Positions 139-27,252 of a stretch of DNA of 51,897 nt are shown here, in pieces. This DNA comes from Scytonema tolypothrichoides VB-61278. Lineage in GTDB: Bacteria > Cyanobacteriota > Cyanobacteriia > Cyanobacteriales > Nostocaceae. A program made the translations under genes and the position numbers. The notes under the pieces are model-generated. The model was given only the letters and a program-made list of their open reading frames with translations. It was not told where the DNA came from and did not search any database. The stretch covers positions 288,456 through 340,352 of the forward strand of contig NZ_JXCA02000024.1 of the NCBI RefSeq assembly GCF_000828085.3, in the 5' to 3' direction. Positions within the stretch are counted from its first letter, which is position 1, and each line of letters starts with the position of its first letter.

Positions 139-3100
139 ATGCATGAAGTATCTTTTCAAGAATCTGCCTGGTACAGAGCCATACCCTTAAGTGAACGTAT
201 TGCACTTTTTAAAAACGCACAGGGAGCGATACCAAATCTTGATATCAATACAGATTTTGCTCAGCGACTGATGCAGCGATGGAAATCACAATCTCCTTTT
301 ACAAATGATTCTTGTTTTGTCCAACGTCTGACAACAGATGAAATTACTGAGGAGGAATTGTTTTACCTTCTGGGTGAGCCAATTGATGCTTTGAAAAATC
401 GTTTTCCAGATGCCCCAAATTGGTTGATAGAGTTAGCTGAGGCATTTTCTAATCCTACTTGCTTGAATGCCAAAATAACTATTGAACCAGAAAAAACAAA
501 AGATAAGGGAAAAGCAGAGTTTTTGTATGCTATTAAGCCGCTAATTATCCAAGGAATTGACCGCTTGCATCAGGGAATTCAGGAGCTCATCCAGATACGA
601 TCTAATTTGCCTTTTGACCCCAGTACTGTCGAAGATTTGTTGTTTACCAATCTAAAAGGGCAATTGCTCTGGATGTTGAGTCGGACAATGATTTTAGAAC
701 TAAATGTGGCTCGTCTACAAGGACTATTAAAAGGTGAAACACCAGAGGAGCGGTTTGGGAGCTTTTTACAACGCCTACAACAGCCTGAGGTGGTGATTCC
801 CCTCTTGCAAGAGTATCCAGTTCTTGCCCGTCAACTTGTAATTAGCATTAAACGTTGGGTTAATTTTAGTCTGGAATTTCTCCAACACCTCTGTAACGAT
901 TGGGATGCTATCTGCACCACTTTTAGTCCAAAAGCAGAACCCGGCTTACTCGTGCAGATAGATGGCGGGAGAGGCGACACGCATCGCGGTGGACGTAGCG
1001 TGCTCATTGCAAAATTTAGCTCTGGCTTCCAAGTTGTTTATAAACCCAAACCTCTAGCTGTTGATATCCATTTTCAGGAACTCCTAGAATGGCTAAATCA
1101 GCGTGGCAATCATCCATCATTCCGCACTCTAAAAATTATAAATCGAGGTACTTATGGGTGGGTTGAATTTTTTGCTGTTCAAACCTGTACTAACTCAGAA
1201 GAAATTCAGCGTTTTTATGAAAGACAGGGTGCTTACTTGGCACTCTTATATGCTCTTGAAGCTACTGACTTTCATAATGAGAACCTAATTGCTACTGGGG
1301 AAAATCCTATATTAATTGACCTGGAATCTCTTTTCCATCCTCGTATTGAAAATTTCGACATTAAAAAATCTGACGAACTTGCTATTAATACAATAAATTA
1401 TTCTGTTTTACGTGTGGGCTTACTGCCCCAACGCATCTGGATCAATGCTGAGTCTGAGGGAATTGAGCTCAGTGGCTTAGGAGGAAAAAAGGGGCAACTA
1501 ACACCTACTAAGGTTCAGTATGTAGAAGGAACTGGAACCGATGAAATGCGGGTAGCTCGTAAGAGGAAGCCAATCCGGGGCAGCCAGAATCAACCTACCC
1601 TTAATGAGTCGGAAGTTAATGTGTTAGACTACACTGAGGCAATTCTGACTGGCTTCACTAGTATCTATCAGTTATTGTTGCAACACCGAAATGAGTTGTT
1701 GTCAGAAAACAGTCCTTTGACTTGTTTTGCCTCTGATGAAGTGCGGTTTATCATGCGACCAACTCAAATCTATGGTACGTTGCTGCATGAGAGTTTTCAC
1801 CCTGATTTGTTACGAAATGCTCTAGATCGCGATCAGTTTTTCGACCGACTTTGGAGAGGAATTGAGCAGAACCCTTATCTAGCAAAGGTGATTGCGACTG
1901 AACGCAACGAACTCTGGGAAGGTGACATTCCCATGTTTTCCACTCGTCCTAATTCGCGCGATCTTTGGACGAGTTATAATGAGCGAATTCCTGAGTTTTT
2001 CGACGAATCAGGCATGAATCTGGTGAAAAATCGTCTGCAGGAACTCAGTGAAGATGATTTGACACAGCAGCTATGGTTTATTCGTGCTTCTCTTACTACA
2101 TTAGCTATGGTAGGAGAACAAGGGGAATGGCCCAATTACCATTTGAAAGAACCGCAAAATAGTGCTAGCCGTGAGCAATTGTTGGCAGCTGCGCAGGCAG
2201 TGGGCGATCGCTTAGAAACTCTAGCATTGCAGGGTGAGCAAGATGTCTCTTGGATTGGCTTGATGCTCTTAAATCAAAAGCACTGGACTCTCATTCCCTT
2301 GGGCATGGAACTCTATCATGGTCTACCAGGAATTATTCTATTCCTTGCCTATCTTGGCACTGTTACTGAACAGAAACGTTACACTGAACAGGCAAGAGCG
2401 GCATTGATCACGCTGCAACGTCAGGTAGAAAGTAGCAAAGCATTCATGACATCAATCGGTGGCTTTGAGGGATGGGGAGGAGTCATCTATACTCTCACTC
2501 ATCTGGGCGTGCTGTGGAATGATCCCGATCTCCTTGATGAGGCTGAATTATTGGTTGAACTTCTCCCAAATTTGATTGAAAAGGAGAAAAATTTAGACAT
2601 TATCGCTGGTGCTGCTGGATGTATTGGCAGTTTAATCAGCTTATACCGTTGTCGCCCTTCTCAACGTATACTCGCTGCTGCTATTGAGTGTGGCAACAAA
2701 ATTGTTTCTTATGCTCAAACTATGGAGCAAGGTGTTAGTTGGCAGGTAAAAGATACGGAGGAAAAACCGCTATCTGGATTCTCTCATGGTGCGGCTGGGA
2801 TGGCGTGGGCGTTACTAGAGTTAGCGTCTGTGACTGGTGATTTGCGCTTTCGGACAACGGCTTTATCTGCCATTGAGTACGAGCGTAGTCTCTTTTGTCC
2901 GGAAGTGAAAAATTGGACTGATCTGCGCTATGTTTCCGGTTCATCTGCTCTGAGCTATGTTTCCAGTCTGCCGGATCTCAAGTATTTTCCTAATGCGATT
3001 TTGTCGGACAATAAGGACAACCAACATATATGCATGATGGCTTGGTGTCATGGTGCCCCAGGCATTGGATTAGCTCGCTTACGTTGTCTTCAGCATTTAG

Positions 3101-3459
3101 ATGATGCCGCAATCAGGGCAGAAATTAACACAGCCCTTCAAACCACCCTGACTCAGGGTTTTGGTCACAACCACTCCCTGTGTCACGGCGATTTGGGAAA
3201 TCTGGAATTGCTCCTGCAAGCTAGCTTAACCCTTGATGACCCGCAGTGGAAAACTCAAGTTGACCGCCTTGCTGCCATAATCCTCGAAAGCATTGATGAA
3301 CATGGCTGGCTCTGCGGCGTTCCTTTGGGGGTTGAGACACCCGGACTGATGACAGGTCTTGCAGGCATCGGTTATGGATTACTCCGATTAGCAGAACCAG
3401 AGCGTGTCCCCTCGGTGCTAGTGCTGGAGCCTCCAAAGCTTAAGAGTTCAAACAATTAG
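139..3459 (+). CDS. lanM: Type II lanthipeptide synthetase LanM
   Basis: Bifunctional enzyme that phosphorylates and eliminates Ser/Thr in a precursor peptide and then cyclises Cys onto the dehydro residues. The N-terminal dehydratase domain (DUF4135) shows GDTHRGGRSV (279-288), YKPK (301-304), the catalytic-loop segment DFHNEN (about 377-382) and DLESLF (394-399). The C-terminal cyclase domain shows the LanC zinc ligands Cys970 (WCHG), Cys1015 and His1016 (LCHGD). At 1106 residues it is full length for the family. The start has AGGAG at 125-129, nine bases upstream. No precursor peptide gene lies next to it inside the window, so its substrate is either upstream of base 1 or elsewhere. The stop overlaps the end of the convergent isomerase gene by 20 bases. 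Confidence 0.95.
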   Translation: MHEVSFQESAWYRAIPLSERIALFKNAQGAIPNLDINTDFAQRLMQRWKSQSPFTNDSCFVQRLTTDEITEEELFYLLGEPIDALKNRFPDAPNWLIELAEAFSNPTCLNAKITIEPEKTKDKGKAEFLYAIKPLIIQGIDRLHQGIQELIQIRSNLPFDPSTVEDLLFTNLKGQLLWMLSRTMILELNVARLQGLLKGETPEERFGSFLQRLQQPEVVIPLLQEYPVLARQLVISIKRWVNFSLEFLQHLCNDWDAICTTFSPKAEPGLLVQIDGGRGDTHRGGRSVLIAKFSSGFQVVYKPKPLAVDIHFQELLEWLNQRGNHPSFRTLKIINRGTYGWVEFFAVQTCTNSEEIQRFYERQGAYLALLYALEATDFHNENLIATGENPILIDLESLFHPRIENFDIKKSDELAINTINYSVLRVGLLPQRIWINAESEGIELSGLGGKKGQLTPTKVQYVEGTGTDEMRVARKRKPIRGSQNQPTLNESEVNVLDYTEAILTGFTSIYQLLLQHRNELLSENSPLTCFASDEVRFIMRPTQIYGTLLHESFHPDLLRNALDRDQFFDRLWRGIEQNPYLAKVIATERNELWEGDIPMFSTRPNSRDLWTSYNERIPEFFDESGMNLVKNRLQELSEDDLTQQLWFIRASLTTLAMVGEQGEWPNYHLKEPQNSASREQLLAAAQAVGDRLETLALQGEQDVSWIGLMLLNQKHWTLIPLGMELYHGLPGIILFLAYLGTVTEQKRYTEQARAALITLQRQVESSKAFMTSIGGFEGWGGVIYTLTHLGVLWNDPDLLDEAELLVELLPNLIEKEKNLDIIAGAAGCIGSLISLYRCRPSQRILAAAIECGNKIVSYAQTMEQGVSWQVKDTEEKPLSGFSHGAAGMAWALLELASVTGDLRFRTTALSAIEYERSLFCPEVKNWTDLRYVSGSSALSYVSSLPDLKYFPNAILSDNKDNQHICMMAWCHGAPGIGLARLRCLQHLDDAAIRAEINTALQTTLTQGFGHNHSLCHGDLGNLELLLQASLTLDDPQWKTQVDRLAAIILESIDEHGWLCGVPLGVETPGLMTGLAGIGYGLLRLAEPERVPSVLVLEPPKLKSSNN

Positions 3460-4195
3460 AGTCTAACTTCTTAACAACATCAACTTGAGTGATTTGTTGT
3501 TTTAGCCATTCAGAAAACAAATTTGAAGCAATTTTTTGGTATAGGGCATTATTCAATTCCAGTTGAATAATCTCCTCCACCAAAATCAGGTGTACTCCTT
3601 TAGAAGTAACAATCGGTTTGAGAAGCTGCGGCGGTTTAGCTGCAAAAACAGCAGCAGAAATTTCTGGCCTCAAATCCTGACGATACACTATTCCCCGATA
3701 TCCGCCTTTGCGACGTAACTCTATATCCTGGGTATATTTATGAGCAACATCATAGAAACTCTCCTCACCTTCCCGTATGGCATAGAAAAGTTCTATTGCT
3801 AAATCTTCGTCATTTAAGATAACCTCATATAACACTGCACGGGCATAGTCTAGTTGATGTTGAAAGAAATAGGGTTCAACTTTATCTGCAAACAGATGCC
3901 GAAATAATTTATGACTAATCAAGTTGCTGTAATTCATTTTTTCAAAGTCATCTAGAGACAGACCTTGTTTTTCTAGCCACGCCCAGGTATCTTCAGCATT
4001 CTGAAGTTGGTTCATTAATCGCAATTGATCTGCTGCTTTCTGAAGTTCCTCGGTCTCTACTTTGATACCCGCCTCAAATGCGGCATTTTCTATAACCTTG
4101 CGGCTGACAATCTCTTCAATGATTTCAGGAATTTTGCCAGATAGCTTGACTTGCTCAAGAATATCTTCGTTAGTAATTGTGATCCTTTGAGACAT
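3440..4195 (-). CDS. Parvulin-type peptidyl-prolyl isomerase (SurA/PpiC-like)
   Basis: 251 residues. Residues about 1-120 are a helical SurA-N-like region. Residues about 120-240 hold a PpiC rotamase-type domain, including a GGYRG segment and a GVHLILVEE strand near the end. No signal peptide is visible, so it is probably cytoplasmic or carried with the exporter. Start codon at 4193-4195 has a clear AGGAG on the minus strand. It is the last gene of the HTH > ABC transporter > HlyD > isomerase group; a foldase for an exported or modified peptide is a reasonable inference. Such parvulins often sit beside HlyD/peptidase-ABC exporters in cyanobacteria. Its 3' end overlaps lanM tail to tail by 20 bases. 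Confidence 0.85.
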   Translation of the reverse strand: MSQRITITNEDILEQVKLSGKIPEIIEEIVSRKVIENAAFEAGIKVETEELQKAADQLRLMNQLQNAEDTWAWLEKQGLSLDDFEKMNYSNLISHKLFRHLFADKVEPYFFQHQLDYARAVLYEVILNDEDLAIELFYAIREGEESFYDVAHKYTQDIELRRKGGYRGIVYRQDLRPEISAAVFAAKPPQLLKPIVTSKGVHLILVEEIIQLELNNALYQKIASNLFSEWLKQQITQVDVVKKLDSNCLNS

Positions 4196-4358
4196 GATGT
4201 TTCTCCTAAGTAGATAAACGATATTTTTGATGTTTGCTCAGCTAGATACAGTTTCTGTTCCCTGTTCCCGTTCGGCTACGCTCACCTTGGCATTGCCTGT
4301 TCCCTACCTCAATTAGTAAGTTCATAAACCAAACCCGATTCCTATATAAACAGAAGCT

Positions 4359-5891
4359 CTACAATTTCAATCCTCCTTTTTGCAACTGCTTGAAGGGGTC
4401 AAGCAGAAAATCAATAATCCGGCGCTGGCGCACAATGACCTCTGCCGTAGCTGTATCTCCAGGACGCAAATTAATACACTTATCACGACTGGGAATACAA
4501 TGCTGATTTAAGGCAATCTCCAAGTTATAAGCTGCCACTTTTCCATTAGGTGTGTCCACTTCTGTAGTAGTAGGAGAAATCTCTACTAACTTGCCTTCTA
4601 CTATTCCATAATCTTGAAAAGGATAAGCATCAAATTTTAGCTTCACTGGCAATCCTTTGCGCAAAAAACCACTCTCTGTCGTCGCCATTAGCGCCCGAAT
4701 AATTAGCGGTGATCCTTGGGGTGCAATCTCCGCAACCATTGTTCCTGGTTGCACCACAAACCCAGACCGTTGAATTGGTAACTGAAACACTGTACCGTTA
4801 GTCGGGGCTTTTAGAACTCGTTGTCCTAATTGAATCTTTAACGATAAAATTTGACTTTTACTTTGAGCAATTTCTGACTTTAGCGTAGTAATTTCTGTTT
4901 CCATACTCTTCTGTTGTTCCTCACTTTTTAAAACAGCTAGCTTGCCAGAGCGAGTCAAAGTCTGATAACTCCTTTCCTGTTCTTTTAGTCGCAACTGTGC
5001 CTGTTCAATATCCGCCTTTGCTTGGCGAATAGTCCGCTCATAACTGCTCTGTTGTTCTGTCAAACGTAGTTTAGCTTGTGCAATATCTGATTTACTTTGT
5101 TCATATAGCTTTTGTTTTTCTTTCGCTATATCTTGCTTTTCCACTAGATGAATTTCTGGAATAACTCCTTCTTGCGTTAGCTGGCTATAGCGTTGAACTT
5201 CTCGTTGAGAACTAGCTAAACTGCTTTCCACTAATTTACTAGCAGTTTGACTATGCTCAAGAGTTTGTCGTGCTTGATTCACTTGAGCTTGTTTTTCTTC
5301 CTTTTGTAACTCATAGGAATTTTTCAGAGTATTGATAGTTTGTCGTGCTTGGTCAATTTGAGCCTGCTTTTCTAATTGTTGAGCTTGATTTTGTTGCTGT
5401 TGAGTTGCCAAAGCTACAACGAATTGATTATTTGATGAATTTAACTGCGAAAGCCGATTTAATTGCCCTTCTAATTTATCTTGTAACGGTCGCAATTCCG
5501 CTTTAACTAATTCTGATTCCAACACCAACAAAGTCTGTCCAGCTTTAACCGAATCACCTTCCTTGACCAGGATTTGGGCAACGGTTCCCAGTACAGCCGC
5601 ATCTAGCCTAAGTGTCTTTCCTTTAGGCTCAAGTCGTCCTCTAGCTGTACCGGTTTCATCTACCTTAGATAGCATTGCCCAAGGTAAAATTATAGATACA
5701 AACACCACCAAAAAATACAGCAATCCCCTTGTCCAAACATGGGGTAAACTATCAAGTGATTCCTGAGTTACATCAGACCAATCATTATTTGATATGGCTG
5801 GTGTTCTTGCTGGTGTTTCGGAGGCTACAACTAGTTGCTCTGCATCTTCATCCACTTGGTTTGAAACCCGCCCGTTAAATATATTTGTCAT
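4359..5891 (-). CDS. HlyD-family periplasmic adaptor (membrane fusion protein)
   Basis: 510 residues. A short cytoplasmic N-terminus is followed by one membrane helix (about 55-75), a lipoyl-like half (about 85-120), a very long Gln/Lys/Glu-rich coiled-coil hairpin (about 125-350), then the second lipoyl half and beta-barrel region (LKAPTNGTVFQLP, about 360-500). This is the adaptor of a type I secretion system, bridging the inner-membrane ABC exporter and an outer-membrane channel. It lies 110 bases downstream of the peptidase-ABC gene on the same strand and is almost certainly its partner. No TolC-like gene is present in the window; cyanobacteria usually encode a shared one elsewhere. No strong ribosome binding site is visible. 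Confidence 0.92.
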   Translation of the reverse strand: MTNIFNGRVSNQVDEDAEQLVVASETPARTPAISNNDWSDVTQESLDSLPHVWTRGLLYFLVVFVSIILPWAMLSKVDETGTARGRLEPKGKTLRLDAAVLGTVAQILVKEGDSVKAGQTLLVLESELVKAELRPLQDKLEGQLNRLSQLNSSNNQFVVALATQQQQNQAQQLEKQAQIDQARQTINTLKNSYELQKEEKQAQVNQARQTLEHSQTASKLVESSLASSQREVQRYSQLTQEGVIPEIHLVEKQDIAKEKQKLYEQSKSDIAQAKLRLTEQQSSYERTIRQAKADIEQAQLRLKEQERSYQTLTRSGKLAVLKSEEQQKSMETEITTLKSEIAQSKSQILSLKIQLGQRVLKAPTNGTVFQLPIQRSGFVVQPGTMVAEIAPQGSPLIIRALMATTESGFLRKGLPVKLKFDAYPFQDYGIVEGKLVEISPTTTEVDTPNGKVAAYNLEIALNQHCIPSRDKCINLRPGDTATAEVIVRQRRIIDFLLDPFKQLQKGGLKL

Positions 5892-6001
5892 GATTTTTGA
5901 TCACACAATTTTGGATTTTGGACTCGTTCCCAGATAGAACTTGGTTACGAGAGAGAGATAGATAGCGGGAGTTTTTCTTGTCCCCGTGTCCCCCTCTTCA
6001 T

Positions 6002-8731
6002 TCAAGCTGCTGCATCTAACTGCTGTTGATTGAGATAGAAATAATGCCCTCGTTTCGCCATCAACTGTTCGTGATTTCCACTCTCAATCAATACGCCCCG
6101 ATCCAGCACCAAAATTAAATCAGCATTCCGCACAGTCGAAAGACGATGGGCAATGACCAACGTGGTTCGCCCTTTAAGAATTGTGTTAAAGTTCCTCTGA
6201 ATAATCCTTTCCGACTCTGTATCCAAATGGCTTGTCGCCTCATCTAAAACCAACAATTTGGGATTGCCTAATAAGGCACGGGCGATCGCAATCCGCTGTC
6301 GCTGTCCACCAGATAACAATCCCCCTCCTTCACCAATCTGCGTTTCGTAACCCATTGGCAACTTTTGAATAAACTCATCAGCACCAGCTAACCGCGCTGC
6401 CTCGATCACTTCTGCTAGCGTTGCCCCAGGATGTCCTAAACTAATATTTTCCCGAATCGTACTGCCAAATAAAAAGGTATCTTGGTCAACTACGCCAACC
6501 TGTTGACGTAAGGAACGCAAAGAAATACTGGTAATATCTTGTCCATCAACCAACACTTTGCCATCTGTAGGAAGATACAACCCCAAAACTAACTTAGAAA
6601 TCGTGGTTTTCCCAGAACCACTACGTCCCACTAACGCCACCATTTGCCCCGGTTTGACTTCAAAACTCAGATTTTCTAGGACATTGGTATCGCTTTCTGG
6701 GTGATAGCGAAATGTCACTTTTTCAAAGCGAATGTGTCCCCTAACTTCTGGTAAAGTTTGCCGTGCTTGATACTGTAAATCCTCCTCCGGTTCTGCATCC
6801 AGCACATCATGAATACGTTCCACGGCAATCACGACTTCTTGCAATTGATTCCATAACACCGTTAAGCGTTGAAAGGGCGTAATAATCTGACCCAGCAACA
6901 TATTAAATGCCACCAATTGCCCAATGGTTAACTGGTTTTGAATCACCTGATGCGCCCCAAACCATAGTAAGGAGGTAGTGACTACTGCTTGAATTGTATT
7001 GCTGAAAATTTGCAGACGATTGTTGATAAGTTGCCCAGAGAAGTTCTTTTTTATCTCTTTATTTAACAACTCTTCCCAATGCCAACGCACTGTTTGTTCT
7101 ATCGCTGTGGATTTAACAGTCCGCACACCAGTCAAGGCTTCAATGAGATAACTACTTTCGTTAGCGACAGCGTTAAATATTTCTCTGGAAATCTTCTGTA
7201 AAAAAGGTGTAGCAATCAACGCCAGTAAGAAAAAAGGCGGTATAATAACCAACGCCAGCAATGCCATTTTCCAGCTGTACCAAAACATCAATCCCACATA
7301 GATAAAAACTGTGAGTAAATCCAGCAGGATAGACAAAGCCTCACCAGAAAGGAAGCGTTGAATTTTGCGATTTTCCTGCATGCGAGAGATAATATCCCCC
7401 ACATAACGAGACTCGAAAAAATTCAATGGTAGCCGCAGTGTATGGCGAATAAAACCGACAATTAATGCTAAATCTATCTTATTCGCCGTGTGGTCTAACA
7501 GATATTGCCGCAACCCCATCATCACCACGCGGAATAAACTAAAAATCAGTAACCCAATTCCCACCGCCGTTAAGGTTAGTTCCGAACGCTGCACCACCAC
7601 TCGGTCTAAAATTAACTGAGTGAATAATGGGGTGATCAGTCCAAATAACTGGATAAACACCGAAGCAGTAAACACCTCCAGCATCACTAAGGAGTGAGGT
7701 TTCATCAACTCAAAAAATTGCCAAAAGGGAGTTGAAGTCTCTTTGGCATCTTTGAGAAAGACTGTGGGTTGCAACAGTAGTGTATAGCCAGTCCAATCTG
7801 CTTTAAATTCCGCGTGGCTGAGGGTACGTTGACCAATGCCAGGATCCGCTACAATAACCTGTTTGGGAGTGATTTCATAGACAACAATGTAGTGGTTTCC
7901 TTTCCAGTGGGCGATCGCCGGCAATTTTTGCTTCGCTAACTGTTCGAGACTCGCTTTCACAGGTCGGGTAGCAAACCCAAAACTTTCCGCCGCCGCCGAC
8001 AACCCCCGCAACGATGCGCCATTGCGGTCAACGTTGGCGATATCTCGCACGCGGTTGATACTAAAGTGTTTCCCCCAATAGCGAGACACCATCACCAAAC
8101 AAGCTGCACCGCAGTCTGATGCACTTTGTTGGGCAAAAAACGGATACCGCCGCAACACGTGCTGCCATAAATGCCCCACTCGCTGTGTAGGGTTAGGGAA
8201 GTAAGCCTTACTAATCTTTTTCTGCGGCTGAGCTTCTACCGCAGATATTGACAAAATATCATTATTGTGATGTTCGTTCGATTCAGTTGGCAGTACTGGA
8301 ACGTCATTAGAGTTCACCTGTTGGGAATTACGCGAAAGCGCCTGATTCCACAAATGCTCCCGGATTTGCGGATACTTAGCCATTAGTGGCGATAATACCT
8401 CACCCGGAATAAAGCACACCTGCAAAGAAACTGAAGCCCTAGCAGCATATGGCTGAAATTCAGCCTCCTTAAACAAGGTAAATTCGCCAAACGATGCTCC
8501 AGCCTCCAGAGTGACGATGATTTCACCCAGCTCATCCAACAATCTGACCTTGCCACCAACGACAATGTAGATACCTGCTTCAACGTCAGTTCCTTGCCAG
8601 AACTTTCCGACTTTCGGGGTTAGGGATTTAGCTTGTTTAAGACAACGTTGAAATTCCCCTTCAGAAAGAGAATGTCCCAAAGTATTACTTAGCTGTTGCA
8701 GAGATAACTGTTCAGATAGATTTTGTGTCAT
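6002..8731 (-). CDS. cNMP-binding / C39 peptidase / ABC exporter (PCAT, HetC-like)
   Basis: 909 residues in four parts. A cyclic-nucleotide-binding-like domain covers about 25-130. A C39 leader peptidase follows, with Gln201-202, catalytic Cys207 (SDCGAACL), His280 (GNHYIVV) and Asp296 (VADPG). A six-helix ABC membrane domain covers about 345-640. The ATPase has GRSGSGKTT, the LSGGQRQR signature and VLDEATSHLD. It should cleave double-glycine leaders and export the released peptide. The order matches cyanobacterial HetC-like and SunT-like exporters; HetC itself has a role in heterocyst differentiation, but sequence alone cannot assign that here. The N-terminal domain suggests gating by a small ligand. 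The start codon lies inside the last codons of the upstream HTH gene (20-base overlap), so translation is likely coupled. Confidence 0.94.
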   Translation of the reverse strand: MTQNLSEQLSLQQLSNTLGHSLSEGEFQRCLKQAKSLTPKVGKFWQGTDVEAGIYIVVGGKVRLLDELGEIIVTLEAGASFGEFTLFKEAEFQPYAARASVSLQVCFIPGEVLSPLMAKYPQIREHLWNQALSRNSQQVNSNDVPVLPTESNEHHNNDILSISAVEAQPQKKISKAYFPNPTQRVGHLWQHVLRRYPFFAQQSASDCGAACLVMVSRYWGKHFSINRVRDIANVDRNGASLRGLSAAAESFGFATRPVKASLEQLAKQKLPAIAHWKGNHYIVVYEITPKQVIVADPGIGQRTLSHAEFKADWTGYTLLLQPTVFLKDAKETSTPFWQFFELMKPHSLVMLEVFTASVFIQLFGLITPLFTQLILDRVVVQRSELTLTAVGIGLLIFSLFRVVMMGLRQYLLDHTANKIDLALIVGFIRHTLRLPLNFFESRYVGDIISRMQENRKIQRFLSGEALSILLDLLTVFIYVGLMFWYSWKMALLALVIIPPFFLLALIATPFLQKISREIFNAVANESSYLIEALTGVRTVKSTAIEQTVRWHWEELLNKEIKKNFSGQLINNRLQIFSNTIQAVVTTSLLWFGAHQVIQNQLTIGQLVAFNMLLGQIITPFQRLTVLWNQLQEVVIAVERIHDVLDAEPEEDLQYQARQTLPEVRGHIRFEKVTFRYHPESDTNVLENLSFEVKPGQMVALVGRSGSGKTTISKLVLGLYLPTDGKVLVDGQDITSISLRSLRQQVGVVDQDTFLFGSTIRENISLGHPGATLAEVIEAARLAGADEFIQKLPMGYETQIGEGGGLLSGGQRQRIAIARALLGNPKLLVLDEATSHLDTESERIIQRNFNTILKGRTTLVIAHRLSTVRNADLILVLDRGVLIESGNHEQLMAKRGHYFYLNQQQLDAAA

Positions 8732-12388: not shown

Positions 12389-14788
12389 ATGAGCAACCAA
12401 AACTCTCAAAACAATGGTTTAGGCAAAAAGAATAATGGAATTAACAGATTCTTCAAATTTGGAGAAGTACCCCATCTTGAAGGTCTGGGAACTCGTTCAC
12501 TTGAGGCATGGTTTTTAGGAACAAAAGCAGAAAATGCCGATGAACTTGAGAGTTTAGTTGTAGAAGCGATTCGCGACCACGCATTTTGGCGTCGAAATTT
12601 TCATCCTGGCGATCCAACTAACGTTACCGAACAAATTAAGCGACAACAAGATTATGCAGAGGCAATTGATACTCTCAAGGAGAGTTACCGCTCATTGCTA
12701 GCGTTTTTAAAGAAGTCCGTACCATTCTTCAGTATGCGCTATCAAGGGCACATGAACTGGGATACAACGATGCCATCTATCCTAGGTTATTTTGCGGCGA
12801 TGCTGTACAACCCCAACAATGTGGCTTTTGAAGGGTCAACGGCAACAACGCTTTTGGAAATTTTGGTAGGAGATGACCTTTGCCGAATGCTAGGATACAG
12901 CATACCGGATGAAGCAGAAATCGAAAAAGGAGCTATTCGTCCTTGGGGACACATCACCTGTGGGGGAACTGTTGCCAACATTGAGGCTATTTGGGCGGCG
13001 AGAAACTTGAAATTCTATCCCCTCGCCTTACAAGCCGCTTTGCAAAATGAAGCCTCACTTGTAGCTGCAAAAGACATCGAAATTTCCCTACCTACTGGTG
13101 GATCAAAACCTCTGATTGAACTCGACACTTGGTCAGTACTCAACCTCAAAGGTGATGATATCCTGGCATTACCGACTCGTCTGTATAAGGAGTATGGGAT
13201 TAAGAGCGAAACCTTAACAGAAGTTTTATCTAAGTATTCACTGCAAAACCTGGGAATGCCAGAGTTTTCACGCCGCTTTCTGGGCGACATCAACTCGCCT
13301 GTGTTTTTAGTGCCAGCAACAAAACACTACTCATTTCCAAAAGCAGCCGCCTTGCTAGGAATTGGAGCATCAAATCTGATTGACGTTCCTGTGGATGAAG
13401 ATGCTAGGAGCAGTCTCACTGAAATCAAAAAGATTCTCCAAAACTGCCTGCGAGAGCGCAAACCAGTCTACACAGTCGTTTGTGTCATCGGAAGCACGGA
13501 AGAAAGCGCAACAGACCCCCTGAGGGATGTTCTTGAATTGCGAGAGGAACTACGTTCCCAAGGGCTAGAATTTACTGTTCACGCTGATGCGGCTTGGGGC
13601 GGTTATTTTGCCACCCTGCTGCGCGAAGATGAAACTAACAACAGATTAGAACTCATCAAAGCAAAAGAAGAACTCGTCCCTGAGATTGGATTAAGTTCGT
13701 ATGTCAACGCACAGTTCCAAGTTCTAGGAAATGCTGATTCGATAACGGTAGACCCTCATAAATCAGGCTATATTCCATACCCAGCTGGGGCGCTGTGCTA
13801 TCGCAATTCAGCAATGCGGGATTTGTTGACGTTCGCTGCTCCCTACATGTACCACGGTGAAGCAGAACCTACAGTTGGTATTTATGGCTTGGAGGGGTCA
13901 AAGCCAGGAGCAGCAGCAGCTTCTGTATATCTCAGCCATAAGGTAATTCGCCCCACAAAGAGTGGATACGGCAAAATTATCGGTAAGTCTCTGTTCAATT
14001 GTAAGAAACTTTATGCGCGGCTTCTATGTATGGCGCGTCCGGAAGACCGTTTCACAATTGTTCCTGTTCCGAGACTTCCCGCAGAAATTTCACGAACTGA
14101 AGTAGAACAACAGATTCAATTCATTCGCGACAGAATTGATAAGGCAAGTAACAATGAACTCTTGGCTGATAAAGAAGCCATGCAACTACTTTCAGAAATT
14201 GGTCCAGACCAAAATATCATCACCTACGCATTTAATTTCAAAAATCCCGACGGTTCGCTCAATACAGATTTAACTTTGGCAAACCGTCTCAATAGAGCGA
14301 TCTATGAGAAACTCAGCATTGACCCAGGAGAGGATATCTACGGTTATAAGCTGATCGTCAGTACCACAGATTTTGATGCTGCTCATTACGGTGAAGTTTT
14401 CATCGAACACTATAAGCAGCGTCTACTAGGAGTCTCTGGAGCATCAGGCTCTTCTATCACTGTACTGCGTTCTACAGTACTCGATCCGTGGCTTGCGGAA
14501 ACATCAAAGGGTTCTTTTCTTGATGTTCTCGAACATGAGTTCCGTCAGGCGGTTTCTGATTCTCTGTTCCGAGATGCGCTGCTTCAGGTATTTGAAGATG
14601 TTGATAAGAATAAAGATGGAGTTTTGGAAGTATCTGAAATTGAGATAAAATTCAAATCTTTGGGTTATAAAGACGAGGACATCAGTATGTTCTGGAATAT
14701 GAGCGATATTAACAAAGATAGTACCTTGTCGATGGAGGAATTTATCCAGCACTTCTCGCAATTTTTAGTCATGTCGTCTCGGGGTTAA
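12389..14788 (+). CDS. PLP-dependent group II decarboxylase with C-terminal EF-hand pair
   Basis: 799 residues. A fold type I PLP enzyme related to aromatic amino acid/glutamate/tyrosine decarboxylases: CGGTVANIEA (about 192-201, cofactor phosphate region), HADAAWGG with Asp400 holding the pyridine nitrogen, and DPHKSG with the Schiff-base Lys458. Residues about 720-799 add two EF-hand loops, DKNKDGVLEVSE (739-750) and DINKDSTLSMEE (773-784), each with acidic or Asn ligands at 1, 3, 5 and Glu at 12. Known decarboxylases of this group end without a Ca2+-binding module, so calcium control or Ca2+-dependent assembly is a fair inference. The substrate is unknown. No adjacent amine/amino-acid antiporter of the acid-resistance type is present. 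Confidence 0.9.
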   Translation: MSNQNSQNNGLGKKNNGINRFFKFGEVPHLEGLGTRSLEAWFLGTKAENADELESLVVEAIRDHAFWRRNFHPGDPTNVTEQIKRQQDYAEAIDTLKESYRSLLAFLKKSVPFFSMRYQGHMNWDTTMPSILGYFAAMLYNPNNVAFEGSTATTLLEILVGDDLCRMLGYSIPDEAEIEKGAIRPWGHITCGGTVANIEAIWAARNLKFYPLALQAALQNEASLVAAKDIEISLPTGGSKPLIELDTWSVLNLKGDDILALPTRLYKEYGIKSETLTEVLSKYSLQNLGMPEFSRRFLGDINSPVFLVPATKHYSFPKAAALLGIGASNLIDVPVDEDARSSLTEIKKILQNCLRERKPVYTVVCVIGSTEESATDPLRDVLELREELRSQGLEFTVHADAAWGGYFATLLREDETNNRLELIKAKEELVPEIGLSSYVNAQFQVLGNADSITVDPHKSGYIPYPAGALCYRNSAMRDLLTFAAPYMYHGEAEPTVGIYGLEGSKPGAAAASVYLSHKVIRPTKSGYGKIIGKSLFNCKKLYARLLCMARPEDRFTIVPVPRLPAEISRTEVEQQIQFIRDRIDKASNNELLADKEAMQLLSEIGPDQNIITYAFNFKNPDGSLNTDLTLANRLNRAIYEKLSIDPGEDIYGYKLIVSTTDFDAAHYGEVFIEHYKQRLLGVSGASGSSITVLRSTVLDPWLAETSKGSFLDVLEHEFRQAVSDSLFRDALLQVFEDVDKNKDGVLEVSEIEIKFKSLGYKDEDISMFWNMSDINKDSTLSMEEFIQHFSQFLVMSSRG

Positions 14789-22888: not shown

Positions 22889-24205
22889 ATGAAGGCAGTT
22901 CTCAACTCGGATACCTTACAAGTCACTCGATTATTTTCTAACCTTGAACTCTATGGAAACAAACTCAATCATCAACCAGGTAGTGTTTTAGGAAGTACTG
23001 CACTTGTTGCAGGAACTACTGTTGGTGCTGGTATTCTTGCATTGCCTGCTGTCACTTTACCCTCTGGTGTTGTGCCATCGACAGTTCTACTTGTTGCTGT
23101 TTGGCTCTACACCTTAGTTTCAGGTCTTTTGATTGCAGAGGTGACTTTAAACACAATGCGTCTTGTGGGGAGTTCAAGTTCAGGTTTGTTGGTGATGGTT
23201 GAGAGGACGCTTGGGAAGCCGAGTGCGCGGGTTGCTGGTGGTGCGTATCTGTTCTTGCACTACGCCTTGCTTGTGGCTTATGTTAGCCAAGGTGGAGAGA
23301 TTTTAGTATCTGCTGTTGAAAAAGTGTTAGGTGTGCAGAATAATTTGCCTGCGAGTGTGGGAACAACAGCGTTCACTCTCTTGTTTGGTGGCATCATGTA
23401 TCTTGGGCGAGAAAGATTTATAGAAAAATTAAACAGCGCGTTTGTGGCAATTGTCCTTGCTTCATTTGTAGGACTGTTAGTGTTGGGATCAACGCAGCTT
23501 AAGACTTCCTCTTTCTCTTTTCAAAATTGGAGTGCGCTTCCTGCAGCCGTTTCGGTGATGTTTGTGGCGCTATTTTACAGTAACGTTGTGCCAACTGTTG
23601 TCACTCAACTCGAAGGTGATGTCCGCAAGATACGTCAGTCCATCTTCATTGGTTCTGCGATTCCCTTAATCATGTTCTTGGCTTGGAATGCCGTGATTTT
23701 AGGAAGCGTCAGCACTGATATGCTACAAGGTAGTTCCGGTGGCGGAACTGTTTTTGACCCACTTCAAATTCTACGTGAAGGTGGCGCGGGAGAATGGTTA
23801 GGAGTTTTAGTATCTGTTTTCTCTGAGTTTGCTATTGTCACATCATTTATTGGGTTTGTGTACGGCTTGCTGGATTTGTTCAAAGATATTTCAGCACCCA
23901 ATGAGCCTTCTAAACGTCTACCGCTTTTTTCACTGATTCTTTTTCCACCAATGAGTCTTGGGGCGCTTAATCCTAGCATCTTCTTGGCTGCTTTAGACTA
24001 TGCTGGAACATTCAGTATTTCAGTTTTAGGTGGAATTATTCCTGCATTGATGATTTGGAAGCAACGTCAAGAACAGCAACAATCAAATAGCATGAGTCAA
24101 CCGCTGGTTCCTGGTGGTAGAGTGACGCTGATTGTGATGATTGGCATTGGGTTGGTTGTGATCGCCAAACAAGTGGTGTCAATCTGGGGTTCGTTTGGAT
24201 ACTGA
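22889..24205 (+). CDS. Aromatic amino acid (Trp/Tyr) permease family protein
   Basis: 438 residues with about 11 membrane helices. The start GSTALVAGTTVGAGILALPAV is the conserved first helix of the tryptophan/tyrosine permease family (TnaB/TyrP/Mtr), with the unwound GxGI segment for substrate binding. Probably a proton symporter in the inner membrane. Its neighbour downstream is the RiPP locus with three core tyrosines; a link is possible but unproven. Confidence 0.88.
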   Translation: MKAVLNSDTLQVTRLFSNLELYGNKLNHQPGSVLGSTALVAGTTVGAGILALPAVTLPSGVVPSTVLLVAVWLYTLVSGLLIAEVTLNTMRLVGSSSSGLLVMVERTLGKPSARVAGGAYLFLHYALLVAYVSQGGEILVSAVEKVLGVQNNLPASVGTTAFTLLFGGIMYLGRERFIEKLNSAFVAIVLASFVGLLVLGSTQLKTSSFSFQNWSALPAAVSVMFVALFYSNVVPTVVTQLEGDVRKIRQSIFIGSAIPLIMFLAWNAVILGSVSTDMLQGSSGGGTVFDPLQILREGGAGEWLGVLVSVFSEFAIVTSFIGFVYGLLDLFKDISAPNEPSKRLPLFSLILFPPMSLGALNPSIFLAALDYAGTFSISVLGGIIPALMIWKQRQEQQQSNSMSQPLVPGGRVTLIVMIGIGLVVIAKQVVSIWGSFGY

Positions 24206-24593
24206 TAATTTGGACTACTTCCCTCCGTCTCGTCCTTATGTCCTATCGGACAGGCTGCGATCAGCGCGTAATATCAAGCCTGGTATGTAGCATTTGGCTT
24301 GATATTAGCTCCTCCTACGGAGGCAAAAATTGAAAAATCATTAAGACATGTTGAATTGAAACTGTCTAGGTGAGAAGATTATCAGTCAGTGATGAGACTG
24401 CTTTAGTGTTTTCACTTAATCAGTAGAAAATCATTGCTAAGGTGTCAAATTTACGACTGTTTCAGCAAAACTACTAGTGCAGCACGGCAGAAATATCTGT
24501 TGAGTTTTTGAAAGCTCAAAACTAGATGTTATGAGCTTAGTTCTGTTTTGCCTGATGGCACTAGCTAGAATTTCAGTAATCCCAGGAGAAATT
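24206..24593. promoter_or_regulatory. Upstream region of the Nif11 precursor, with 12-bp hairpin
   Basis: A perfect stem of 12 bp (TAATATCAAGCC 24269-24280, GGCTTGATATTA 24296-24307, 15-base loop) follows the permease and may end its transcript, though it lacks a T run. The remaining 280 bases are AT-rich and should carry the precursor promoter. A strong AGGAG (24584-24588) ends it, five bases before the ATG. Confidence 0.55.
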
Positions 24594-24983
24594 ATGTCTC
24601 TAGAAGACGTCAAAGCATTTTACGAAAGACTAGGAACTGACGAAGCTTTCCGTACCCAAATTCAAGGGGTTAATAGTAAGGATGAATGTAGCCAAATGGT
24701 CAAAAGTGCTGGCTATGATTTCACCCGAGAAGAGTTGGAAGAATATACAGCCGAACTGTTGGAGTTAAGTGCTGATGAGGATGGTCTGGCAGATTTAGAC
24801 GAAAAAGAATTGGCAACTATTTTTGGTGGGATTACTTTCCAGGCGATGTATGGAGTCATTTATGAACCACCCACTGACTGGTCACCCACTAAGCGGCCAC
24901 CCAAGAAGTGGCCACCCATTGATCCTCAGCCTTTATATGGAGTTGTTCAGCCACTGTATGGAGTTGTCCTATCGCAAGAATAA
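24594..24983 (+). CDS. Nif11-leader RiPP precursor with three XYG core motifs (PlpA-like)
   Basis: 129 residues from the ATG at 24594, chosen because AGGAG sits five bases upstream; the frame is open 21 codons further but that part has no site. Residues 1-77 form a Nif11/nitrile-hydratase-like leader (MSLEDVKAFYERL... to ELATIFGG) ending in Gly78-Gly79. The 50-residue core (80-129) lacks Cys and contains Met85-Tyr-Gly, Leu114-Tyr-Gly and Leu121-Tyr-Gly, each followed by Val. Between them is a Pro/Lys/Trp-rich linker. XYG is the recognition motif of PlpX-type spliceases, which remove a tyramine equivalent. A radical SAM/SPASM gene and a small protein follow directly. Confidence 0.9.
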   Translation: MSLEDVKAFYERLGTDEAFRTQIQGVNSKDECSQMVKSAGYDFTREELEEYTAELLELSADEDGLADLDEKELATIFGGITFQAMYGVIYEPPTDWSPTKRPPKKWPPIDPQPLYGVVQPLYGVVLSQE

Positions 24984-24991
24984 CTCTAACG

Positions 24992-25045
24992 AAGCTTGAG
25001 CAATAAGCTTAAGTTTCTTGGGACGGATACAAGTAAGTCCGTCCC
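24992..25045 (+). promoter_or_regulatory. Two hairpins between precursor and radical SAM gene
   Basis: AAGCTT (24992-24997) pairs with AAGCTT (25005-25010). Further on GGGACGGA (25020-25027) pairs perfectly with TCCGTCCC (25038-25045). No T run follows either. Such a structure could leave more precursor than enzyme message by partial termination or by protecting the 3' end. Confidence 0.55.
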
Positions 25046-25075
25046 TATCTGAATAAATTAGCTGAGGATATTTTA

Positions 25076-26329
25076 ATGACATATCGCAGAGTGAGTTATG
25101 CGGTTTGGGAAATCACGCTAAAGTGCAATTTAGCTTGTCAGCACTGCGGTTCTCGTGCTGGGCACACAAGGGCGAAAGAACTTTCGACAGAAGAAGCCCT
25201 TGATTTAGTCAAACAAATGGCGGAAGTCGGGATTACAGAAGTCACCATAATTGGGGGTGAGGCTTTCCTCCGTCCTGATTGGTTGGAAATTGCCTCTGCG
25301 ATTACCGATGCTGGAATGCGTTGTGGCATGACGACTGGGGGTTATGGCATCACCTTAGACACAGCACGCCGGATGAAAGAAGCTGGGATAATGGTGGTTT
25401 CTGTTTCGGTTGATGGCTTAGAAGCGACTCATGACCGCCTCAGGGGTAGAAAAGGTTCTTGGGAATGGGCGTTTAAGACCATGAGCCATCTTAAGGAAGT
25501 CGGTATTATCTTTGGCTGCAACACTCAAATCAATCGCCTCTCTGCACCGGAATTTCCCCAAATTTACGAGCGTATCCGTGATGCTGGCATTTTTGCTTGG
25601 CAGATTCAGTTAACAGTCCCAATGGGAAATGCAGCGGATAATAGCGACATTCTACTACAACCATATGAACTGCTGGATGTCTATCCAATGATAGCTCGTG
25701 TTGCCCAACGCGCTCAAGAAGAAGGGGTGCAGGTGCAGCCAGGAAATAATATCGGCTATTACGGTCCTTATGAACGATTGCTGCGGGGAGGACATGCTTG
25801 GGCTTTTTGGCAGGGATGCAACGCGGGACTGGCTACGTTGGGCATTGAAGCAGATGGTGCAATCAAAGGTTGTCCTTCACTGCCGACTTCAGCATACACC
25901 GGAGGTAACATCCGCGACCACTCACTGCGAACAATCATTGAAGAGACAGAAGAATTAAGATTTAATTTGGGAGCTGATACTCCCAAAGGGACAGAACATC
26001 TTTGGGGTTTCTGCAAGAGTTGTGAATTTGCTCAACTGTGTCGTGGTGGTTGCTCTTGGACTGCTCATGTTTTCTTTGACAAAAGAGGTAATAATCCTTA
26101 CTGTCATCATCGTGCTTTGACGCAAGCAAAACACGGGATTCGCGAGCGAGTCTTTCTCAAGCATCAAGCGGAGGGAAACCCGTTTGATAATGGCGAGTTT
26201 GCTTTGGTTGAGGAAGCAATTGATGCTCCTTTGCCAGCAAACGATCCACTTCAGTTTAGTGGCGATCGCATTCAATGGTCAAAAAGTTGGCAACAAGAAC
26301 CATCACTTCCTTCATTAACAACTCATTAA
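25076..26329 (+). CDS. Radical SAM/SPASM peptide maturase (PlpX-like splicease candidate)
   Basis: 417 residues. The [4Fe-4S]-SAM motif is CNLACQHC (Cys17, Cys21, Cys24), followed by GGE (60-62). The C-terminal SPASM region has Cys248, Cys266, Cys313, Cys316, Cys322, Cys326 and Cys343, enough for two auxiliary clusters. Members of the Nif11-peptide radical SAM group include PlpX, which cuts tyramine out of XYG motifs; others epimerise or crosslink. The three XYG motifs of the adjacent precursor favour splicing. Start has GAGGA about eight bases upstream. The next gene starts two bases after its stop. Confidence 0.9.
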   Translation: MTYRRVSYAVWEITLKCNLACQHCGSRAGHTRAKELSTEEALDLVKQMAEVGITEVTIIGGEAFLRPDWLEIASAITDAGMRCGMTTGGYGITLDTARRMKEAGIMVVSVSVDGLEATHDRLRGRKGSWEWAFKTMSHLKEVGIIFGCNTQINRLSAPEFPQIYERIRDAGIFAWQIQLTVPMGNAADNSDILLQPYELLDVYPMIARVAQRAQEEGVQVQPGNNIGYYGPYERLLRGGHAWAFWQGCNAGLATLGIEADGAIKGCPSLPTSAYTGGNIRDHSLRTIIEETEELRFNLGADTPKGTEHLWGFCKSCEFAQLCRGGCSWTAHVFFDKRGNNPYCHHRALTQAKHGIRERVFLKHQAEGNPFDNGEFALVEEAIDAPLPANDPLQFSGDRIQWSKSWQQEPSLPSLTTH

Positions 26330-26331
26330 TC

Positions 26332-26502
26332 ATGTCTGAAGAAAATACAACTATTACTAACTCCCAAACTCAGGTAGACTCTCAAGCACCCCTGTTACCT
26401 CGCTTGGCTTGGAGTAATCAGGTAGCCTATTTGCGAGTTGTGTTGAAAGCTAAGAGGGCTTTAGACAGAATAGAGAAGGAAGCAGGTGTGTTGGAAAATT
26501 AA
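26332..26502 (+). CDS. Small partner protein of the radical SAM enzyme (PlpY-like candidate)
   Basis: 56 residues starting MSEENTTITNSQ. The N-terminal half is polar and flexible; the second half (LPRLAWSNQVAYLRVVLKAK) should form an amphipathic helix. The ATG lies two bases beyond the radical SAM stop, with no ribosome binding site of its own, so coupled translation is likely. PlpX needs a small protein, PlpY, for splicing; position and size suggest this is the counterpart, but I cannot show homology by eye. Confidence 0.6.
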   Translation: MSEENTTITNSQTQVDSQAPLLPRLAWSNQVAYLRVVLKAKRALDRIEKEAGVLEN

Positions 26503-26541
26503 AAACGAATCGACGACTGTCAATAATAGCCCAAAGATGAC

Positions 26542-27252
26542 TTATGGTGAACTCAATCTTTTTTGGCTCGCTTTCTGACGCCTGATTGGGTTCATCCAAA
26601 CTTCTAGACGAGAGAAAAATTGGGACGAAGCTAAGGTGAGAACCAGATAAACCAATGCAACTGCAGTGTAAATCTCGAAAGCACGATAAGTATTAGCCAC
26701 AATTAATTGACCGCGTCGTAATAATTCCTCGAACCCAATAACTGACACGAGACTGGTATCTTTAAGCAGGGAGATAAATTCATTTCCCAGTGGTGGAATC
26801 ATACGACGCAACGCTTGGGGAAAGATGATGTAGCGCATGGTTTGCACTCCACTCATACCCAGCGAGTTTGCGGCTTCGGCTTGTCCTGGTTCAATCGATT
26901 GAATTCCAGCACGAACAATTTCGCCTATATATGCAGCAGAGTTGAGACTCAAAGCAACCACAGCAGCAAGTAAACGGTCAAAACGCAGAGGTATGCCAAT
27001 GCTTTGAGCAAGTGCTGGTAAACCAAAATAAATCATAAAAATCTGCACAAGCAGAGGCGTACCGCGAAAAAAATCAACATAAGCGCGAGTGCAAAAGCGT
27101 AAGGGTAAAATTGGCGAAAGTCGGGCAATTCCGATCAACGAACCGCCAATCATACCAAAAACAACTGAAAGCGCGGTAATCTCAAGTGTGACGACAGCAC
27201 CAAAAAGTAAATTTGGTAGGGCGTTGAGAATGATAGTTAAACTCTGAATCAT
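26542..27252 (-). CDS. Polar amino-acid ABC transporter permease (GlnP-like)
   Basis: 236 residues, about five membrane helices, FRGTPLLVQIFMIYF signature and EAA loop EAANSLGMSGVQ with FPQALR. It belongs with the substrate-binding lipoprotein 417 bases upstream on the same strand and the divergent ATPase beyond. The preceding small RiPP partner gene converges on it with 39 bases between stops. The C-terminus ends in a basic tail. Confidence 0.9.
   Translation of the reverse strand: MIQSLTIILNALPNLLFGAVVTLEITALSVVFGMIGGSLIGIARLSPILPLRFCTRAYVDFFRGTPLLVQIFMIYFGLPALAQSIGIPLRFDRLLAAVVALSLNSAAYIGEIVRAGIQSIEPGQAEAANSLGMSGVQTMRYIIFPQALRRMIPPLGNEFISLLKDTSLVSVIGFEELLRRGQLIVANTYRAFEIYTAVALVYLVLTLASSQFFSRLEVWMNPIRRQKASQKRLSSP

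Follow-up and report, generated by a model that had tools for sequence, protein, structure and literature searches.

The locus studied here lies in a stretch of 51,897 nucleotides from Scytonema tolypothrichoides VB-61278, referred to below as the window, and consists of three genes on the forward strand, which encode a putative peptide precursor, a radical SAM/SPASM enzyme and a small protein (Table 1). The precursor scores 58.8 bits with TIGR03798 (cut-off 32.3) and 63.7 bits with PF07862 (cut-off 23.8). Its leader is closed by Gly78-Gly79, and the 50 residues that follow (ITFQAMYGVIYEPPTDWSPTKRPPKKWPPIDPQPLYGVVQPLYGVVLSQE) contain no Cys. The Nif11 leader with its double glycine, the Cys-free core with one MYG and two LYG motifs, and the radical SAM/SPASM gene trailed after two bases by a 56-residue protein had all been reported in a preliminary description of this DNA, and every one of them was found at the positions given there. 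A longer reading frame for the precursor opens at 24531, but we favor the start at 24594, because it is preceded at a distance of four bases by the Shine-Dalgarno-like AGGAGA and because the Nif11 profiles align with the shorter protein from its first residue onward. Shuffling of the core at constant composition produced at least three YG in 0.02% of cases (P = 0.0002), which, together with the conservation of the motif across the family (see below), argues that the three copies are not due to chance. The source genome contains a single GG-type Nif11 precursor; its other Nif11 gene (L114) has neither a GG core nor YG and was rejected as a second precursor.

Table 1. Features of the locus and of the nearest peptidase-ABC cassette, in window coordinates
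Feature	Positions	Strand	Basis or remark
PpiC, HlyD, C39-ABC cassette	3440-8731 (C39-ABC 6002-8731)		adjoins LanM gene, 139-3459
Nif11-leader spliceotide precursor (putative), 129 aa	24594-24983	+	leader 1-79 ending GG; core 80-129
Predicted splice site 1, MYG, precursor residues 85-87	24846-24854	+	translation, family motif
Predicted splice site 2, LYG, residues 114-116	24933-24941	+	in first copy of the 21-bp QPLYGVV repeat
Predicted splice site 3, LYG, residues 121-123	24954-24962	+	in second copy of the 21-bp repeat
Hairpin with perfect stem, between precursor and enzyme genes	25020-25045	+	tail weakly T-rich
PlpX-type radical SAM/SPASM splicease (putative), 417 aa	25076-26329	+	TIGR04103, tree, identity to plp-locus enzyme
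PlpY-type partner protein (putative), 56 aa	26332-26502	+	family HMM; LPRxxW...KxxL signature

A scan of positions 24200-26600 found no promoter-like site on the forward strand upstream of the precursor gene, and the number of terminator-like sites in the same region was at chance level (two, versus a mean of 1.7 after shuffling). The hairpin in the gap between the precursor and enzyme genes (GGGACGGA-N10-TCCGTCCC), at which the terminator scan made no call, has a pattern that occurs once in the window and in none of 100 shuffles. A perfect stem of length at least 7 is present in 19 of 64 equivalent intergenic gaps and absent from 45. We also observed similar GGACGG hairpins in the same gap of several related loci, most gaps being devoid of them. 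The hairpin is a possible attenuator.

The enzyme scores 832.7 bits with TIGR04103 (nif11-class peptide radical SAM maturase 3; cut-off 725), which we take to correspond to IPR026482. The runner-up among the NCBIfam families, TIGR03913 (GDL-motif peptide-associated radical SAM/SPASM maturase), reaches 411.7 bits, i.e. it is more than 400 bits behind and below its own cut-off of 591.75, and the enzyme is not a member of it. The CX3CX2C motif (C17, C21 and C24) is invariant in 25 aligned sequences, and so are seven other Cys residues (C248, C266, C313, C316, C322, C326 and C343) spaced in a SPASM-like pattern; these ten correspond to the radical SAM and SPASM positions. Comparison of a structure model of moderate confidence (pLDDT 66.9) points to the general radical SAM/SPASM fold and nothing further. 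The source genome has a single TIGR04103 match over the cut-off, and among 386 cyanobacterial genomes 25 have a match at E 1e-100, which in 21 of these genomes exceeds the cut-off. Five divergent matches from three other families of the phylum (L028, L029, L030, L031 and L033) score below the cut-off, with 435 to 635 bits, and these enzymes may have other substrates.

In a maximum likelihood tree of 95 sequences, 87 other relatives group with the window enzyme and the enzyme of the plp locus (see below) at 97/94 support, and outside this group fall six further radical SAM proteins from the source genome, albeit with no resolution at the base of the group, very long branches of the six outsiders and a bootstrap that had not fully settled. 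The possibility raised in the preliminary description that the enzyme might group with epimerases or thioether synthases found no support: it groups with the plp-locus enzyme and has the scores given above, the comparison with characterized epimerases and thioether synthases, of which the tree contains none, resting on those scores. PlpX itself is filed under IPR026482 in a recent review (PMC11002830).

A search for a plp-like locus in 27 genomes of a Pleurocapsales family led to L121, which has two Nif11 precursor cores, with AVAAMYGVVFP and FPIRPLYGLPI. Since both cores match splice tags in Table 1 of an FtsZ study (PMC10533398), where Gly stands for X, we take L121, from its sequence, to be the plp locus of Pleurocapsa sp. 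PCC 7319 or a near-twin of it. The Met at position 5 of the first core fits the PlpA3-M5G variant of that study, and we infer that the other core is PlpA2. The L121 enzyme scores 823.6 bits with TIGR04103 and is 75% identical to the window enzyme (310/413). The two loci have in common Nif11-leader precursors with XYG, a radical SAM/SPASM enzyme and a small partner encoded directly after it, but the two precursors of L121 carry one XYG each, whereas in the window three are found in one precursor with a longer, Pro/Trp-rich core. According to the FtsZ study, PlpXY excises tyramine at XYG, with MYG and LYG as natural sites, and splices a ten-residue tag independently of a leader (PMC10533398). 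As only two of the tag variants listed in Table 1 of that study were accepted by PlpXY, the motif alone is no proof of splicing. Multiple splices in one precursor have already been described (PMC10373908) and antiSMASH 6 includes a rule for spliceotides (PMC8262755); a 2022 paper states that no natural spliceotide had been isolated by then (PMC8868522).

The 56-residue protein matched no Pfam or NCBIfam family. A profile HMM built from five proteins encoded downstream of the enzyme has matches at 78 of the 79 distinct loci represented by the best 80 of 169 relatives; the only locus without one (L096) is on a stretch that ends just behind the enzyme. Across 39 sequences, residues L22, P23, R24, W27, K41 and L44 do not vary, and the protein that follows the enzyme in L121 shares LPR..W and KAK..L with them upon inspection by eye. 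The predicted structure, of moderate confidence (pLDDT 68.6), comprises a disordered N-terminus and one main helix (residues 30-50). By its sequence the protein is a PlpY-type partner of the enzyme, and its role would be that of its counterpart in the Pleurocapsa plp system, PlpY, which has been described as a truncated RiPP recognition element (PMC11002830).

To the same 79 loci we added the window and searched the flanks of the enzyme gene, to a maximum of 5 kb in either direction, for Nif11-type reading frames. After removal of one coreless frame and two identical copies, the 127 frames left 124 distinct cores, of which 121 contain YG: one site is present in 50, two in 62, three in eight and four in a single core, one of whose sites is DYG and perhaps no true site; the remaining three cores have none. 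Five loci (L053, L061, L062, L075 and L078) have no usable Nif11 core within 5 kb of the enzyme, L071 was merged into L070 (same enzyme, same cores), and 73 loci with a YG core were counted. At the 202 sites X is most often Leu (94) or Met (52), followed by Ile (19), Val (10), Ala (9) and others; Leu and Met are the X residues reported for natural PlpXY use (PMC10533398). The flanks are mostly QP before the site and V plus V/I after it, so that the survey yields the motif profile QP-[L/M]-YG-V-[V/I]. For a control we took 20 genomes, all from the source organism's own family, out of the 361 in which the enzyme has no match. They contain 21 Nif11 matches, 11 of them with a GG-type core; YG is absent from all eight short GG-type precursors, and the three GG-type matches that have it are proteins of at least 480 residues. 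In this small control, the YG motif tracks the enzyme.

Both the presence of three sites and the seven-residue spacing of the last two, which the preliminary description had singled out, are real but not unique to the window. At least three sites are found in nine of the 124 cores, and in eight of the 79 loci (best 80 of 169 relatives) besides the window. A spacing of seven residues between YG sites occurs in six cores, in five of which (window, L054, L060, L064 and L092) X is hydrophobic at both sites, as in LYGVVQPLYGVV; these belong, apart from the window, to a Desmonostoc, two Nostoc strains and a Hydrococcus. On the enzyme tree the pair requires four changes, and the same number if only well-supported branches are considered (shuffled labels average 4.9), a count that is approximate, as a precursor gene need not travel together with its enzyme gene. 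The core of Desmonostoc vinosum HA7617-LM4 (L054) resembles that of the window in having three sites in the same layout, ending in PQPLYGIVQPMYGIV with the same seven-residue spacing, but it comes from another genus and enzyme clade, and the differences between its repeat copies are not all silent.

In the window, the pair corresponds to a tandem repeat of 21 bp, the copies of which differ at four bases, all of them silent; assuming tandem duplication and uniform substitution, the probability that four random changes are all silent is 0.0024. The nearest comparable precursor, that of Brasilonema bromeliae (L096), carries two sites, and the second repeat copy is missing from it. The leaders of the two precursors differ by four silent and four replacing codon changes in 79 codons, and the aligned parts of the cores by one silent and ten replacing changes in 43, so that the core changes fast while the YG sites stay. 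The Pro/Lys/Trp segment between the first and second sites, which had been put forward as a possible recognition or functional part, fares less well: many relatives have PP..W..PP spacers, and successive YG sites in the family are anywhere from 7 to 47 residues apart, so that this segment probably does not serve as a specific recognition element.

Taken together, these data lead us to conclude that positions 24594-26502 very probably constitute a spliceotide (PlpXY-type) biosynthetic locus. The same reading had been put forward in the preliminary description, and it now has behind it the TIGR04103 score, the identity to the plp-locus enzyme, the PlpY-type partner and the conserved YG. In this class the precursor leader is of the Nif11 or the nitrile-hydratase type and closes with GG, and the core contains XYG; the window's precursor conforms to this with a Nif11 leader. 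The precursor would be bound by the radical SAM enzyme and the PlpY-type protein, which are predicted to excise up to three tyrosines partially and thereby to leave reactive keto groups; a C39-type peptidase/ABC exporter would then cut after Gly79 and secrete the peptide. The predicted product lacks Cys, is rich in Pro and Trp and would carry at most three ketoamides, of which two are near neighbors; it is plausibly a protease inhibitor. The reaction, which would leave an alpha-keto-beta-amino residue, the role of the partner and the expected loss of mass (net tyramine, -135.07 Da) are transferred from the Pleurocapsa plp system, and splicing at all three sites is a prediction of the model. 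The calculated core mass of 5724.97 Da would drop to 5589.91, 5454.84 or 5319.77 Da after one, two or three splices. The locus is typical of its kind, apart from a number of predicted splice sites that exceeds the average. The chemistry and multi-splice precursors are already known; what is uncommon here is the presence of three sites in one peptide, with two of them close to each other. The locus would provide a substrate that naturally has three sites and comes with the matching enzyme pair, suitable for studying the order and completeness of splicease action on neighboring sites, and could be useful toward peptides with several bio-orthogonal ketones.

Within this explanation, we see a considerable chance, though not an even one, that only one or two of the sites are spliced and that the extra copy is a duplicate without use. 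Such partial splicing would agree with the two sites and missing repeat copy of the B. bromeliae precursor, the nearest relative with a comparable core, with the prevalence of two-site cores (62/124, the commonest class) and with the VVQ common to sites 2 and 3, which makes their flanks overlap, but it does not sit well with the purely silent differences between the two repeat copies in the window or with the existence of similarly spaced pairs in three other lineages. The full converse, namely that selection has found close XYG pairs several times and that each of the three window sites is spliced, giving two ketoamides about six residues apart and a third one, we put forward tentatively and consider somewhat doubtful. 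If it is true, the peptide could be e.g. an inhibitor with two arms, directed at a pair of proteases or at a single protease whose two active sites lie near each other. The occurrence of paired sites in several lineages makes a multi-warhead function a testable question.

No exporter gene adjoins the spliceotide locus, and the nearest C39-ABC gene found in the window is about 16 kb away, in the cassette listed in Table 1. Peptidase-ABC transporters have been reported for spliceotides (PMC10885120), though an adjacent one does not define the class, and one might propose as an addition to the spliceotide reading that this cassette, as a spliceotide export module split off from the locus, cleaves and exports the product. 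In other genera, homologs are encoded within about 5 kb of the enzyme (PpiC at 34 of the 79 loci from the best 80 of 169 relatives, 25 of them with more than 45% identity, HlyD at 17 and C39-ABC at 10), the flanks of the surveyed loci being often too short to reach these genes, and when these proteins are compared with the four closest cassettes of the source genome, 19 of 25 PpiC and 9 of 10 C39-ABC proteins have their best match in that of the window. Nevertheless, next to the cassette is a LanM gene, upstream of which two GG precursors of 76 residues are encoded, so that the cassette most simply serves a lanthipeptide, and no homolog of it with more than 50% identity is found in 60 kb around the Brasilonema CT11 locus or in 40 kb of HA4187. 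We consider its involvement possible but less likely than not and dropped it as part of the locus, as the homology is suggestive but the LanM cluster explains its presence better. Window positions 139-8731 as a whole represent a class II lanthipeptide cluster (LanM scores 1070.5 bits with TIGR03897). Its two 76-residue GG precursors, just upstream of LanM, are nearly identical and end in ..GGGSYLCCGGAISEYFTNPVAAE; they are located at L140 17435-17665 and 18280-18510, the second, which has ambiguous bases, ending at about position 55 of the window.

Trp, Lys and Pro, all present in the core, are used by other RiPP enzymes, and the enzyme is distantly similar in structure and sequence to the RiPP radical SAM/SPASM enzymes SkfB, PqqE and SuiB, but epimerization, thioether formation or cross-linking of the core is nonetheless highly improbable given the lead of TIGR04103 over all other NCBIfam families, the lack of Cys for thioethers, the conservation of YG across the family and the close relationship to the plp-locus enzyme.

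The relatives that best match the window's spliceotide locus are three Brasilonema loci (L034, L035 and L096), whose enzymes are 96-98% identical to that of the window in the best segment. They have one to three precursors each, with two or three sites, but the seven-residue LYGVVQPLYGVV pair is found only in the window. All three have a Trp/Tyr permease gene on the 5' side, and L034 and L035 have an amino-acid ABC permease gene on the 3' side, where L096 is cut off; thus, the window and the two former loci have the same gene on each side. From these matches the window would probably be assigned to Brasilonema. For the genome of Brasilonema CT11, one lasso peptide, one lanthipeptide and four bacteriocin clusters, among others, have been reported (PMC7503407), and Brasilonema is nowhere mentioned in the papers retrieved by our literature search on spliceotides.

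Two neighboring genes were rejected as parts of the system. The Trp/Tyr permease gene of the window (22889-24205) has homologs (E 1e-20) at the three Brasilonema loci and, within the stretches available around them, at none of 75 non-Brasilonema loci, and the tyrosine-decarboxylase-like gene (12389-14788) has a homolog (E 1e-20) at none of the 79 loci from the best 80 of 169 relatives. The product of the latter gene scores 366 bits with TIGR03811, below the cut-off of 905, and has a C-terminal EF-hand pair.

A conserved Cys-rich protein of about 145 residues, with no Pfam or NCBIfam name, is encoded near 37 of the 79 loci from the best 80 of 169 relatives (e.g. L052 6791-7228, L042 3565-4017, L166 10971-11411). 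It was not found in the window, and its sole match in the source genome is on contig C2, behind a different reading frame with a GG leader. In a genome without a TIGR04103 match (L144 1501-3219), we found an in-frame fusion of a Nif11 leader with a GG-type end and a dCache/HAMP sensor-like protein. Just downstream of the plp locus lies a gene for a dCache/HAMP protein that has no such fusion (L121 2-1297, reverse strand). The fusion of a leader to a sensor was unexpected and may have to do with the regulation of such loci.
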